A stretch of 64,000 nucleotides of DNA from Hesseltinella vesiculosa (lineage: Eukaryota; Mucoromycota; Mucoromycetes; Mucorales; Cunninghamellaceae), in contig MCGT01000005.1 in assembly GCA_002104935.1 (NCBI GenBank), positions 806,001 to 870,000 on the forward strand, in the 5' to 3' direction. Positions 42,374-48,379 of the stretch are shown piece after piece. The position numbers and the translations under genes are program-made. The notes under the pieces were generated by a model. That model had not been told where the DNA came from. It made no database searches and was given only the letters and a program-made list of their open reading frames with translations. How positions within the stretch are numbered: the stretch's first letter is position 1; every line of letters starts with the position of its first letter.

Positions 42374-43001
42374 TTAAGCTTCAGTCTTGCGGACACGACG
42401 GTGACGGACATCAGCGTTGGCAGCAACGGGGTTGGTCACTTGAACACCGGGCAAGTTTTCAAAGTTGAGAGCCTTCAACAAGTCCTTGGTGTCAGGATCG
42501 ATTTCAATAGCCGAGGTGTCCAAAGCAGAGAATTCGGGAACGAAGTTGTCACGACGTTCACGTTCTTCTTCTTGCAACTTGAAGGAGATACCACGGACGG
42601 GACCACGGGAGATACGGCGCATCAAGTGAGTGGTGAAACCAGCAATCTTGTTGCGAAGACGCTTGGAAGAAATGATAGCAACTTCATTAGCGATCTTCTT
42701 GTTGGTTTGGAAATCAACTGTCAAACGAGGATAGTACTTTTCAATCAAGACACGAGAAGCCTTTTTGACAGTCTTTGTGCGAACGCGACCCTATAGAAAG
42801 TAAATGGAGTAAGCATCTTTGTTCTCCATGTCATGCCATTCTTCTCCATGTGGCTTCTCTTCCCGCTGATCCATCCATCCATCCATCCACTCATTCATGA
42901 TGATCCATTTCGATTTTGCACTGATGAAGATTATCTAGTCGCTGAATGCATCGATCCTATTTTTTTTTCTAAGCCTATGTTGAATTCTGGCCACCTACCA
43001 T
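42374..43001 (-). CDS. RPS17: 40S ribosomal protein S17 (eS17)
   Basis: Exon 42999-43001 carries only the ATG; exon 42374-42790 carries the rest, giving 139 aa. It reads [20 protein letters not shown], then [27 protein letters not shown] and [24 protein letters not shown], all canonical eS17. The body is one long exon, as usual for highly expressed genes. Only about 90 bp separate its start codon from the inverted repeat that marks the Fanzor element, so the element lies in or next to its promoter. Confidence 0.97.
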
Positions 43002-43093
43002 AATGTAGTTAAAGTGAAAGAGGAAGAAAAAAAAAACCGAAAACAAGCAGAGACTTTTTTTTGGGCCGACGCCCTAGCGGGGTTTTCTACACC

Positions 43094-43107
43094 TCCACTA
43101 TGGAAAA
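43094..43107 (+). repeat. Left inverted repeat of the Fanzor element
   Basis: The 14-bp TCCACTATGGAAAA matches the reverse complement of 47142-47155 exactly. It lies 93 bp upstream of the RPS17 start codon. Confidence 0.6.
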
Positions 43108-43667
43108 TTTGAGAAGAAAAAAACAGCGCAACCAATCAAATATCCAGCTGCATATGCGCTACTAAGCGCACTAACATGATCCGCTTGCAGAAAAGAATTT
43201 GTCGCATCTTTCTGCAAAGCATGCTATTTTTACCACCTTGGATTTATAGACCAAACATGGTAAGGCATAGGGAGAGGCATGCGTGAAATAGACAGAATGG
43301 TATGGATAGTCGCAATTTCTTCAATCTGGAGCATTTTTGTTTAACTGAGGATGACTCTGGGGCCTGATTTTTTTTTTTTCGTGGTTTGGTTTGCCAGGCA
43401 GTGTTAAGTTTTTATTTAAGAAGCACAGTAAAATGAGCAATAGAGATAGGCAAAGAGTGTTACCTTTATCATTGATGGTACGCTACTTCATTTTATATTT
43501 CAAAAAGAAAGGTACGTAATAAAAAAAAAGGTTAAGGATGTGATTGGCGGTCATTCTCGCTGGCATTGGCAAAGGTTTGATCATCCGCAACACGCGATTC
43601 TTTTTTTTTGTTTGTTTATCAAGGCTCTTCTATCTTTTTTATTTTTGCTCATTTTCTATCTTTCCTG
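43108..43667. other. Left non-coding part of the Fanzor element
   Basis: About 560 bp before the Fanzor start. It contains a perfect 6-bp hairpin (TGCGCT-ACTA-AGCGCA, 43155-43170) near the left inverted repeat and T tracts closer to the gene. It should hold the promoter. No gene is seen in it. Confidence 0.4.
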
Positions 43668-46600
43668 ATGCAATCGCTTCTTCAATCCGTCTACGTAACT
43701 CTGTGCCACATCCCTGAAGAAGATTTCCGCCGGGCGTTGCCTGATCAGTTGGGCCAAGCTTGGATGACCACCGAACAATTCTACACTGTTTGGTCACAAG
43801 CAAAAGTCTATCGCAAACGTAAGTCATCCATCACTTCAATCATGTCTTTTTCCTTACCCATCTTCGTAGGATGGGAAACTGGGCCCACACCACAACGACG
43901 TGCCCAACAACAGGAACAAAACGATCGCGCCGAGGGGAGACGGCAGCGCCAAGAAGATGAGCGAAATCCTGATGCTGTGGGACCGTGTGCCACATGCGGC
44001 CAAATGGGACACTGTTCGTCTGCCAGCCGCCTCTGTCCTTTCCATCGCATGAACAAGAAGGATTACATCAACGAAATGATGCCAGGTGGTGAGCGCTACA
44101 CGATAAAAAAAAGCTTTGAAGATGCCATCCGGCAACCGTTCAAGCTCGCTTTGAAGCGCAACATAGAGTCGACCAGCGCCTGCAACAAGAACATCCTTTT
44201 CCGCCTCCAATTATTTCTCAACCATTTCGCTCTCACCCACCCGTCTGACTTTAAAAGCATCATGATCAGCCAGAACGGTCTCCTGTCCATCTCGCAGCTC
44301 GTCTATCCCCGCAACCCGCGTCGACCAGGGATTACTAACGCTCATGTCCTACGAAGCCTTCCTCCCACCTTCCTGCCTCACTGGAACCAGTTTGTCCGTG
44401 ACCACTCGAACATCACCTACAGCCCCAACGACCACCAAGGCATGGGTCCGCTCGACAATGCAGCCCTTCTCATTCCTGCTGATCACCGCAGCCTTCACTT
44501 CCACCACCCGCATAAATTCTATGCAAAAACGTTTGGGCCATGCTTGTCAACGCTTGCCACAGCTTACTCCAATTGTTTGGTGATCGACTTTGAGAAAAAG
44601 GTCAAGAAGTTTATTCGATTCTCCTTTGCCATCACGGATCTCAGCGTAGGTTTTATAAAAAAAAAAGAACCAAAAAAGGGATATGTTTTGACTTTTTTTA
44701 TGTCTCTTTCAGATCCCTCACATTGACCGGCAGGTGGATGATATCTACACGAGCTTTGCAGAGAGACCTTCCCATCCTCAATCAGGGGTCACACCTGGAT
44801 CGGCCACAAGCAATGTCCCTGGTGTGTCTACCGAAGAAGCGGCCATTGCCAGTGTAAAGGCGAAAACACTGGCCTTGAAACCCCACTACGTTGGCAAATT
44901 GACGTCGACAACCCTGTCCCGAAACCCCAGCAGTGCCTTGCTTGTCTACATCAACATCAACAAGCACTACGAGCAATACAAGTGCCAGCCCAATGCCAAC
45001 CCTAAAAAATGCCCGAAGCTTACCATCCTTCCTGAGCCTCACTTTGGACGCCGATTCATCCCCATCTTACCCGACACGATCAAATATCTAGCCGAATGCG
45101 ATGCCATTGAAACAAACAACGACAACACTGGTGAACGCGACGCCGCTTTCATCCGTGCCTTGCCCATGTTTTTCAAGGTGTTCCACATGGAGAAGTTCGA
45201 CTTTGGCAGGCCTGGGTACGGGAGGTAAGTTTCGCAGACACCAAAAAAAAAAAAAAAAGAACAACTTCCAACTTTTTTCTTCTTCTTCTCACCTAGTGTC
45301 CAGGACATGCTTGAGGGTATACTATACAACCGTCCACTGTTTGCTTGCCACATTTGGTGTGATGGCGTTTCGTGCTGCTTTGAATTTATTCGTTTGCCAA
45401 CCACGCATCGCCCAACGATGAAGCTGCCCAGCCTGGACCACTGGAATACCGAACTGGTAGAACGCTTCGACATGGTCGCCGTCGATCCAGGCCGCCGTGC
45501 CATCGTCACCGGAAGCTATGGCACACCTTATCCACTTTCTATGCTCCCTGAAACCCGGGATGACGAAGACTCTGCAGGTGAAGGTGGACCCGATAACGAT
45601 AATGACGAAGAACAAATGGCTATCGATACCCCATGTCCTATTCGTACTGCTCAGCCTGCACATCAACATCAGGACTTTGACAACGCCACTGGCAGCACTG
45701 ATATGGAGCAAGGAAATCTCTCTATGCCTATGATTGACGATACCGATCCTACCACCCCGATCCCCCAGTCTCACCATCTGCCTTACCGAGTCATCAAAGT
45801 TTCTGCAAAGGAATACCGCTCGCAATGTGGAACGCAGCGACGAATCCAACAATTGGAACGGCGCAAGGTTTCCACAACATACTCCTTCCGAGGTCAGCAA
45901 ATACCGTTCCATCAGATGGAAGCCGCTATCCCTTCTCACCGAACCACCAGCCCCACTGAATATGCCACACGAATCCAGTACCTGCTTGATCGTCTCCCGC
46001 TCTTTTTCGACTTTTATGGCCTCCAGCACTCCATCGACCGCTTCAATGCTTACAGAGGGCGTCAGCGGGGCGTGGCATACGTTGCCAGTGTTCTTGCTGG
46101 CCTGTCCAAGAAGTATGTCAAGTCCCAGCGCAATGTGCGCGGCCACCGTAGGCGTACCCACCGCAATCGGCGCAAGCGTCAGAAGAAAGCTCGGAAGAAA
46201 AAGGCCTTCAAGATCAGCATGGCCAAGAAGGCGATGGTGGAACACCTTGCCACAATGGATATTGCTATAAAGAAGATCGAAGATTTAGTGAACTGCTGTG
46301 CTGGCTCGACATTACCTGGGACGATGGATTCTTTGGTTGCAACATTGCAAACCATGCGCACCCAACGCGACCTGGACCATGACCTCCGCATTACTCTGAT
46401 CAGCCAAATGGAAGAAAAGAGGCAAGTCATCACGGCTTTCAGGAGGTCCACCAGGTGGTGCTGATTTTTTTTTTCCAATGGTAGACCTGCGCCACCAATG
46501 AAACCAACCACACGAATGCGCCATGGCGTGACAAAATACCCCAGCCAAAGAATTCCATTGATCCTCTTTGGTGATGGCCTCAAGGGCCGGAAGGTCGCCA

Positions 46601-46999
46601 CCCCTCTGAAAAAGCAACTTCCTGGTTCGTCCTCCCTGGTGTTCAACCAATTGGAAGACCGGCAACGACAGGGCAAGCTTTCTGTTATCTCGCTAAATGA
46701 GTTCAAAACAAGCAAGGTGAGTAAAAAAAAAAAAAGAGGTGTGTCAACAGCAACGAGGCGACTCATTCTTTTCTTCAACACAGCTCTGCTCCATGTGCCA
46801 TGGCCCAACGAAGAGCCCAGCCATGAATGGTAGCAAGGTGTATGGGCTTTTGCGCTGCAGTTCTTGTAATGTCACCTTTGACCGGGATGTGATGGCGGCC
46901 TGCAACATGGTGTCTATTGGCCAGCACTTTTTCCAACACAAGCAACGCCCCCTGGCCTTTTGCCCGCGCCGACGCCCCCAAACCTCTCCTATTGTTTAG
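43668..46999 (+). CDS. Fanzor: eukaryotic TnpB-like RNA-guided nuclease
   Basis: Six exons (43668-43818, 43870-44645, 44713-45224, 45297-46421, 46485-46716, 46784-46999) sum to 1003 aa with no frame break. The C-terminal half is a RuvC-like nuclease. RuvC-I is FDMVAVDPGRRAIVTG (D543); the segment LILFGDGLKG follows; LNEFKTSKLCSMC supplies E927; and FDRDVMAACNM supplies D967, like the DRDxNAAxN end of TnpB. A C4 zinc ribbon (C934, C937, C957, C960) sits between the last two. The GDG...EFKTSKxCSxC order is typical of Fanzors rather than bacterial TnpB. A Lys/Arg-rich stretch (VRGHRRRTHRNRRKRQKKAR) follows the RuvC-I region and could bind RNA. An acidic insert follows D543. Known relatives cut DNA guided by an omega-RNA. 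The fourth intron needs a GC-AG splice. Confidence 0.88.
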
Positions 47000-47141
47000 T
47001 TTTCATTTTCATTCACCAAAGCAACCCCGCAAAAAGGGTTACCGTCTGCTCTGGCAAGAACGCGTTTAATGCTTTTATCCGGTAATTGGTGTTTTTAGCC
47101 AACACTTAACACAAGTTCTGATTGGTAACGGAGTTTTCTTT
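47000..47141. other. Right non-coding part of the Fanzor element
   Basis: The 142 bp between the Fanzor stop and the right inverted repeat. It has a small hairpin (AACCC/GGGTT, 47023-47027 with 47036-47040). In TnpB/IS605 loci the guide RNA overlaps this position; whether one is made here is unknown. Confidence 0.35.
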
Positions 47142-47155
47142 TTTTCCATAGTGGA
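47142..47155 (-). repeat. Right inverted repeat of the Fanzor element
   Basis: TTTTCCATAGTGGA is the exact inverse of 43094-43107. It lies 143 bp after the end of the Fanzor coding region. Confidence 0.6.
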
Positions 47156-47248
47156 TTCATGAAGGTCGGACTGAAGGTGGCGTTGTTATTTTTGAAGTTT
47201 AAGGTATTTCACAGTGGTCTGGCCGTTTATATCTGTATGGGTCTATCT

Positions 47249-48379
47249 CTAATTCAGTCGGTCCTTGTTCTTTTGCGCCAGCATATCTTCTAGGATTTGA
47301 GCCACGCCATGATTGACATTGGTATCGGCGATGTGCACTACAGCAAAGAATGAATAACGAAGAAGAAAAAGCTGCTGCGCTTTTGGCTGCTTCCTTTTTT
47401 TTTTTTTTTTTTTTTTTTTACCTGCAGCTTGCTTCACTTGATCTTCGGCATTCTCCATCGCCACGCCAATGCCTTGAGGAGAGAGAAAAGGTGAGTATAA
47501 AGAAAGCCAAGGAGAGGAGGCTTACCGGCAAACTGGAGCATTTGAATGTCGTTGGGCATATCGCCAAAAGCTATGATTTGCTCACGAGGCACACTCATAT
47601 CTTGGGCGATCTGGGCTAATGTTGCTCCTTTGGAGACACCGGTGGCCGAGATCTCGATAAAAAATGGGTTGGAATAGGTGTTGTGCAAGACATCCTTCCA
47701 GGAGGCATCGTTGAACACATGTTGATCCAGGTGGCCGTGCAAGGTGGCTGCGTGCCAGGACGTGTGGAGGATGACAATCTTTTCGACAGGCTCATCGGCA
47801 AATTCCTCCAGAGAAGCCACCGTGTCGTAAGGGTGATTCATGTTGTCTGCACCACGGAACCGGGCGTAACCAGGCTCGCATCGGAATCGCATGCCGCTCT
47901 CCACGCCAAAACACACGCTGTCGCCTAGTTCCCGTTTGACTTCAGAGACAATTTTTATCACATGCTCAGGTTCAATGGCAAAGCTTCGCTTGATGTTCTT
48001 TTCTTTGTGGTCCAAGACAATCGCTCCATTGCAACACAGGGCAATGGGATGGTCCAGATCAACCAGATCCAGCACCGGCACCATCGCTCTAGGTGGTCCT
48101 GCCAGAATAAGCCAACGAAATCATGAGTACCTTGTGATTTAACGACAAACATGAACCTACTTCCTGATGCCAGCACGATTTGCACGCCTTGCTTTTCCAA
48201 AGCTTTGAGCACCCCAATGCTTCGCTCAGACAGGGCAGCCCTAAAAAAAAGGATGAGACAAAGCGATCCATCGGCAGTTGCCAGCGATTTGAAATGAATA
48301 CCTACTCATTGTACCCACCAGTAACAAGAGTGCCATCCAAATCAGAAGCTACCAGCTTAATATCGGCAAGATCAAGCAT
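47249..48379 (-). CDS. Cof-type HAD-superfamily phosphatase, paralogue A
   Basis: Multi-exon gene. HAD motif I is KLVASDLDGTLV (nucleophile and general-acid Asp), motif II QIVLASGS, the lysine of motif III lies in SKGATLAQIAQ, and motif IV is IIAFGDMPNDIQMLQFAG. The C2B-type cap between motifs II and III carries HPIALCCNGAIV. This is the Cof/YbiV group, which hydrolyses sugar phosphates and similar small substrates in the cytosol. The C-terminus (HGVAQILEDMLAQKNKDRLN) is identical to that of the neighbouring paralogue. The gene starts just right of the Fanzor element's end, read towards it. Confidence 0.9.

Follow-up and report, generated by a model that had tools for sequence, protein, structure and literature searches.

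Described Fanzor systems and the Hesseltinella element

Fungal members of the Fanzor family, Mucorales included, have already been published (PMC3627910). The role of Fanzors for their host element in eukaryotes is still an open question. The subject of this analysis is a mobile element in a stretch of 64,000 nucleotides from Hesseltinella vesiculosa (GCA_002104935.1, contig MCGT01000005.1, positions 806,001 to 870,000; hereafter the window). This 4.06-kb element with 12-bp inverted repeats carries an unbroken six-exon Fanzor1 gene whose product is likely to be an RNA-guided DNA cutter, with an omega-RNA predicted from the right end of the element. In the literature searched, mostly without subscription papers, no description of the Hesseltinella Fanzor element family was found; the family adds to Fanzor1, a class that is itself unsurprising, and is unusually testable.

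The Spu-1 elements of Spizellomyces punctatus encode SpuFz1, which has a 75-nt right-end scaffold, a 14-15-nt guide, and associated ghost loci (PMC10432273). Like Spu-1, the Hesseltinella family consists of a Fanzor1 gene in an inverted-repeat element with many close copies (several intact), a conserved right end, gene-less ghost derivatives, and the same RuvC and zinc motifs, and a transposase was found in neither (PMC10432273, PMC3627910). In contrast to the Spu-1 protein SPu-1-1p, which has 633 amino acids (aa) in one reading frame, the Hesseltinella protein has about 1003 aa in six exons (PMC3627910, PMC10432273). Putative TA duplications, and CA preceding the left repeat, are features of Spu-1, whereas the Hesseltinella element has a pyrimidine-GA signature and fuzzy left ends; Spu-1 ghosts retain both repeats, whereas the Hesseltinella lone ends show the right repeat only. 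The omega-RNA of SpuFz1 has been measured, whereas that of Hesseltinella is predicted (PMC10432273). The SpuFz1 flank motif is read as CATA in PMC11423790, sections 4 and 6 of which disagree on the enzyme, and this motif seems to include the target duplication of SpuFz1.

Other described systems share different traits with the locus. The MCi-2 Fanzor elements of Mucor circinelloides, which Bao and Jurka could not classify, also have a fixed 3' part, fuzzy 5' ends, and 11-12 bp duplications with a fixed initial motif; in contrast to the Hesseltinella element, with its 12-bp inverted repeats and duplications of GA plus 2-10 variable bases, MCi-2 has no recognisable inverted repeats, and its motif is ATAATTNNNN(N) (PMC3627910). 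In PpFz1 of Parasitella parasitica, RuvC contains an inserted segment of about 100 aa, the FRI domain, which binds cyclophilin (PMC11423790). The Hesseltinella protein showed no sequence match to the PpFz1 chains in the PDB, and any kinship between its insertions (residues 556-641, 785-797, and 810-858) and FRI is conjectural. With TnpB of IS200/IS605 and IS607 it shares the RuvC domain, the C4 ribbon, and a right-end RNA logic (the omega-RNA being predicted here), but it is much larger, has introns, and lies in a eukaryotic element. Among TnpB proteins, only a narrow clade shares the alternative glutamate of the Hesseltinella Fanzor (PMC10711439).

The element and its gene

The original prediction had named only the gene; the surrounding multi-copy element with defined ends is an addition to it. 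The element and its exons are as follows.

43096..47153, plus strand: whole element, 4058 bp from left to right inverted repeat; 19 other copies align nearly end to end
43096..43107, plus strand: left terminal inverted repeat CACTATGGAAAA, 12 bp, varied or truncated in other copies
43668..43818, plus strand: exon 1, with the ATG start
43870..44645, plus strand: exon 2
44713..45224, plus strand: exon 3
45297..46421, plus strand: exon 4, followed by a GC-AG intron (an alternative GT donor would end the exon at 46454)
46485..46716, plus strand: exon 5
46784..46999, plus strand: exon 6, including the stop codon
47142..47153, plus strand: right terminal inverted repeat TTTTCCATAGTG, the inverse match of the left repeat, nearly fixed across the family

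Exons 1-3, 5, and 6 rest on the spliced frame and an alignment of 20 copies. The inverted repeats of the window copy are perfect, CACTATGGAAAA at 43096-43107 being matched inverted at 47142-47153. A protein search of the organism's own genome found 23 close copies (20 retrieved whole, three by their ends) and one distant copy (C1:1651494-1654262, 39-54% identity). The 19 other whole copies share 87.9-98.5% identity with the window copy and have unrelated flanks; spread was fairly recent, since the nearest copy, at 98.5% identity, has flanks unrelated to those of the window. Twenty of the 21 genomic sites with the exact 14-base repeat lie in family copies, and the remaining one is a lone right end. 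Three members (L066, L067, and L070, the last about 0.9 kb) are internally deleted derivatives that have lost most of the Fanzor gene and kept one or both ends.

The six-exon frame of 1003 aa at 43668-46999 was borne out: the joined exons give 1003 codons plus a stop, with no internal stops, and D543, E927, C934/C937/C957/C960, and D967 all stand in the spliced translation at the residues originally named. Across the 20 aligned copies the five introns measure 47-51, 63-70, 65-77, 51-63, and 59-67 nt, and the differences in introns 2-5 are often not multiples of three. The whole frame is nonetheless open in 12 of these copies, and GT or GC-AG borders stand at all five introns in 11; frames kept open over such varying introns are more than chance would give. 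The weak point of the gene model is the donor of intron 4. In the preferred model it reads GCAAGT (GC-AG) in all 20 copies; an in-frame GT donor further downstream, present in 19 of 20, would shorten the intron to 21-30 nt; the window copy would then encode 1014 aa, and residue numbers beyond this point would rise by 11. Introns this short are unusual, and for this reason the GC donor is preferred and the GT donor set aside, a choice that sequence alone does not decide. Residue numbers throughout follow the GC-donor model.

The protein and its place in Fanzor1

The main features of the protein are listed below; counts refer to an alignment of nine proteins, the window protein and eight homologues.

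43986..44045, plus strand: N-terminal zinc-knuckle-like motif, C90-x2-C93-x4-H98-x7-C106-x2-H109, complete in 6 of 9 proteins
45484..45486, plus strand: RuvC-I codon D543 (VDPGR), D in 9 of 9
45523..45780, plus strand: RuvC insertion, residues 556-641, just past the first RuvC aspartate, missing from at least 7 of 8 homologues
46699..46701, plus strand: codon of the RuvC alternative glutamate E927 (NEFKTSK), E in 9 of 9
46787..46867, plus strand: C4 zinc ribbon C934, C937, C957, C960 (the first two in 8 of 9, the last two in 9 of 9)
46886..46888, plus strand: RuvC-III codon D967, D in 9 of 9

Profile searches and the modelled fold of a relative uphold the family identity proposed in the original prediction. 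In the Fanzor/TnpB profile comparison, hhalign against 32 homologues (a profile that excludes the window protein itself) gave a probability of 100 and E=2.6e-48 over 677 columns; 29 of these homologues carry an organism name, in each case from a Mucorales genus, and 3 carry none. Profile A3, built from the window protein and the eight homologues, matched SpuFz1 at 5.6e-23, GtFz1 at 2.5e-9, LaTranC at 1.8e-6, and the Fanzor2 L79 at 1.3e-4; profile A4 matched SpuFz1 at 1e-20 and LaTranC at 6.2e-5, with GtFz1 not among the matches listed. Pfam places Cas12f1-like_TNB (PF07282) on residues 909-974 with E=1.8e-9, which exceeds the curated cut-off. For the homologue P0004, the solved chains nearest to the predicted structure are Fanzor1. 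This gives the relative a RuvC fold, and a clustering of D543, E927, and D967 in the window protein itself is presumed from their alignment with D491, E699, and D744 of P0004; the exon-4 part of the window protein, modelled alone, reached a mean pLDDT of 52.5, and this model was unusable.

Individual motifs were compared with those of Fanzor1. The Fanzor1 RuvC triad is marked by DPG and an alternative glutamate (PMC10711439), the latter being placed after strand 5 and before the zinc domain (PMC11423790); E927 aligns with the E of NEYLTTK in mimivirus L79. The TDG motif of the WED domain is a Fanzor1 feature (PMC10711439), and here DG is kept (D502) and T is replaced by C, so that the site reads WCDGVSC. 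Methionine does stand where asparagine is usual in DRDxNAA, but this is no oddity: M or L occupies the position in 7 of the 9 proteins and N in 2, and SpuFz1 has WNRDMLSTCNML at the site aligned with RDVMAA. Altogether the RuvC triad with DPG and alternative glutamate, the C4 ribbon, the fold (on the relative), the closer sequence, and a eukaryotic transposon other than IS607 were found, and by profile and by the modelled fold of a relative the window protein is a member of the Fanzor1 family.

The protein of the open copies is under purifying selection. Among 66 pairs of the 12 open copies, the mean dN/dS is 0.276 (range 0.154-0.482) at a mean dS of 0.128. The segments missing from at least 7 of the 8 homologues are residues 26-37, 229-245, 556-641, 785-797, and 810-858; the RuvC insertion evolves faster (dN/dS 0.55 over residues 561-640), and residues 861-1003 have a dN/dS of 0.21. 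The window copy may be active, as originally suggested, and purifying selection strengthens that case.

The right end as a predicted omega-RNA

Two features at the right end are predicted from the comparison of copies and by analogy with SpuFz1 (PMC10432273).

47087..47155, plus strand: predicted omega-RNA scaffold (right-end core, ending with the flanking GA), marked by lone right ends and deletion derivatives, with 96.6% mean pairwise identity in 20 copies
47156..47175, plus strand: predicted guide of the window copy, in the right flank

The mean identity between copies is 96.1% in the 3' noncoding part, 86.4-92.5% in introns 2-5, 97.7% in intron 1, and 97.1% in the 5' noncoding part. A search with 47000-47157 found 39 places, 23 of them the close copies. 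Eight of the 16 others were read: five have pieces of the Fanzor gene upstream, and three (on C85, C35, and C18) consist of the right end only, where the match covers the final 57-71 nt and starts near 47087. No gene pieces occur in the upstream bases read at these three places (3.4 kb, about 490, and 457, respectively), and with such short stretches a gene piece may lie farther upstream at C35 and C18. The lone right ends and the conserved block parallel the scaffold and ghost loci of SpuFz1, and the block is therefore taken as the predicted scaffold. By this analogy, the guide RNA would consist of the last 70 or so nucleotides and roughly 15-20 nt of the adjoining right flank. The predicted guide (and target) of the window copy, GATTCATGAAGGTCGG, occurs in the genome exactly once, with one mismatch once more, and with two mismatches 18 times. 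Rfam, searched over 42900-47400, gave two matches only, both under the gathering score.

Element ends and target duplications

The right end is fixed and the left end is not. GA directly follows the right repeat in 22 of the 23 copies, L056 having GG instead. At the left end, nine copies carry CACTAT and two GACTAT, and the others are changed or truncated there to differing extents; left-end scoring covers the 17 copies that keep a GGAAAATTTGAG-like end, and L063 has no left anchor. GA stands exactly 10 nt upstream of the left end in 11 of these 17 (expected 1 in 16; P 4.9e-10), preceded by a pyrimidine in 11 of 11 (P 4.9e-4); both counts are post hoc, the pyrimidine-GA pattern having been noticed before counting. 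Target duplications were recognised in 7 of 23 copies. Three are of 4 bp (GAAT, GATT, and GAAG) and weak, with only two bases matching beyond the shared GA; the longer ones are GAGTCGCGTT (10 bp), GAGTGGGTATG (11 bp), GACTCACACATG (12 bp, with flank-like filler after it), and GAAAGCATGTGC (12 bp), and the two classes are not reducible to a single length. A 9-base near match in L054, in A-rich sequence, was left uncounted. At the left junction of L050, filler of about 13 bases, similar to the adjacent flank, comes after a 12-bp duplication, as in end-joining repair.

Proposed mechanism and alternative explanations

In the proposed mechanism, an omega-RNA comprising the right end of the element and its flank would guide the Fanzor to cut. 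By analogy with SpuFz1, the target beside the guide would carry a pyrimidine-GA flank motif, the signature of the left flank. An occupied site reads G-GA at the right end and would be spared, an empty site with pyrimidine-GA would be cut, and repair templated by the occupied chromosome would keep or restore the element. The 15 other element frames of 57-320 aa gave no Pfam match above a curated cut-off; no transposase or serine recombinase was thus recognised among them (smaller or spliced frames unscanned), so movement is expected to use a transposase provided from elsewhere in the genome. Were guide-RNA-directed cutting true as predicted, a native fungal Fanzor system could be tested directly in one small genome. 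Of 20 alleles, 12 are open and show purifying selection, and the right ends are exact; a guide RNA of some 70 nt plus flank and a pyrimidine-GA flank motif are predicted, and the lone right ends might work in trans. To the known Fanzor1 proteins the family adds a long one encoded by six exons, with insertions in RuvC and a zinc-knuckle-like motif near the N-terminus.

Several observations weigh against RNA-guided cutting or against the Fanzor1 assignment beneath it. Because intron 1 and the 5' noncoding part are as conserved as the 3' part, some of the conservation could stem from recent spread or gene conversion. Folding of the RNA of 47016-47157 does not surpass that of shuffled sequences (z +0.86), 163 of 200 of which fold equally well or better, and covariation in the right-end RNA is slight at most, with 4 of 41 pairs in one analysis and 0 of 3 in another. 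The lone right ends may be no more than leftovers, and binding by a transposase might account for the conserved right end. The window copy has neither the left pyrimidine-GA nor a target duplication. In a single-sequence PDB search the top match was mimivirus L79, a Fanzor2 (E=0.0032), and PpFz1, the solved Mucorales Fanzor, gave no sequence match in PDB single-sequence or profile searches, matching by fold only.

The best surviving alternative, an unlikely one, is that the Fanzor gene is genuine and under selection but its product, instead of cutting under RNA guidance, does something else, for example regulating the element or its transposase by binding DNA, with the right-end block serving solely as a binding site for the transposase. 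The absence of folding support for the right-end RNA accords with this, as do the inverted repeat within the right end, which a transposase must bind anyway, and the N-terminal zinc-knuckle-like motif, which could bind nucleic acid. A regulator does not readily account for the three acidic RuvC residues being identical in all nine aligned proteins, for VAVDPGR, LNEFK, and FDRD being kept together in 11 of the 12 open copies (L054 lacks LNEFK) and in 15 of 20 overall, or for the low dN/dS of residues 861-1003. Less likely still is a dead relic, in which the copies of an old Fanzor transposon are decaying and the window frame is open by luck: 8 of the 20 copies have premature stops, and deletion derivatives and lone right ends are present, but frames of about 1000 codons are open in the other 12 at the divergence and dN/dS given above, and the spread was fairly recent. 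Marginally less probable again is a part for the Fanzor in integration itself, in which a staggered cut at pyrimidine-GA and end-joining, with a fixed right and a ragged left end, would produce variable duplications, making the element an RNA-guided transposon with trans-acting ghost guide RNAs; this would fit the duplications that begin with GA, three of 4 bp and four of 10-12 bp, one of them with filler that looks templated. That the protein is a Fanzor2 or an IS607-like TnpB is very improbable and was rejected: despite the L79 match and weak NCBIfam matches to TnpB and Cas12f2, far under cut-off, profile and fold comparisons place Fanzor1 far ahead of Fanzor2, and none of the 15 other element frames scanned carries a serine recombinase domain.

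Neighbouring genes, transposases, and other Fanzor-like families

Two minus-strand frames flank the element. One about 300 bp from its left end (window 42374-43096) resembles, by eye, ribosomal protein S17, and one on the right side resembles, again by eye, a HAD-type hydrolase. The genome holds 21 MULE and 7 Transposase_21 places as well as 55 repeat-like sites (at most one mismatch), the closest of which lie 12.3 kb from a MULE place and 38.6 kb from a Transposase_21 place. The inverted repeat begins with CACTA, and the 4-12 bp duplications do not settle the transposon superfamily (CACTA versus MULE). An autonomous partner was sought at two locations and rejected at both: the outside sites C45:134323 and C45:140263 (the one pair followed) share no common sub-terminal sequence, and at C85:260219, a lone right end, the reading frames within 3.4 kb look host-like.

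The genome also contains at least two other Fanzor-like families, on contigs C78, C85, C2, C13, C5, and C1 (L001-L003, L005, L007, and L008), with ribbons of the form DE..TS or DE..SS..C..C; TNB matches number 46 genome-wide, the element's own family included. The right end GGAAATACAGTA is common to L003, L005, and L008, and its inverse TACTGTATTTCC lies at the edge of L004. The TNB match of another Fanzor family and a MULE transposase domain are separated by about 2.6 kb (C1:1367676-1370607, partly covered by L008), in agreement with the MuDR-type Fanzor elements known in Mucorales (PMC3627910).
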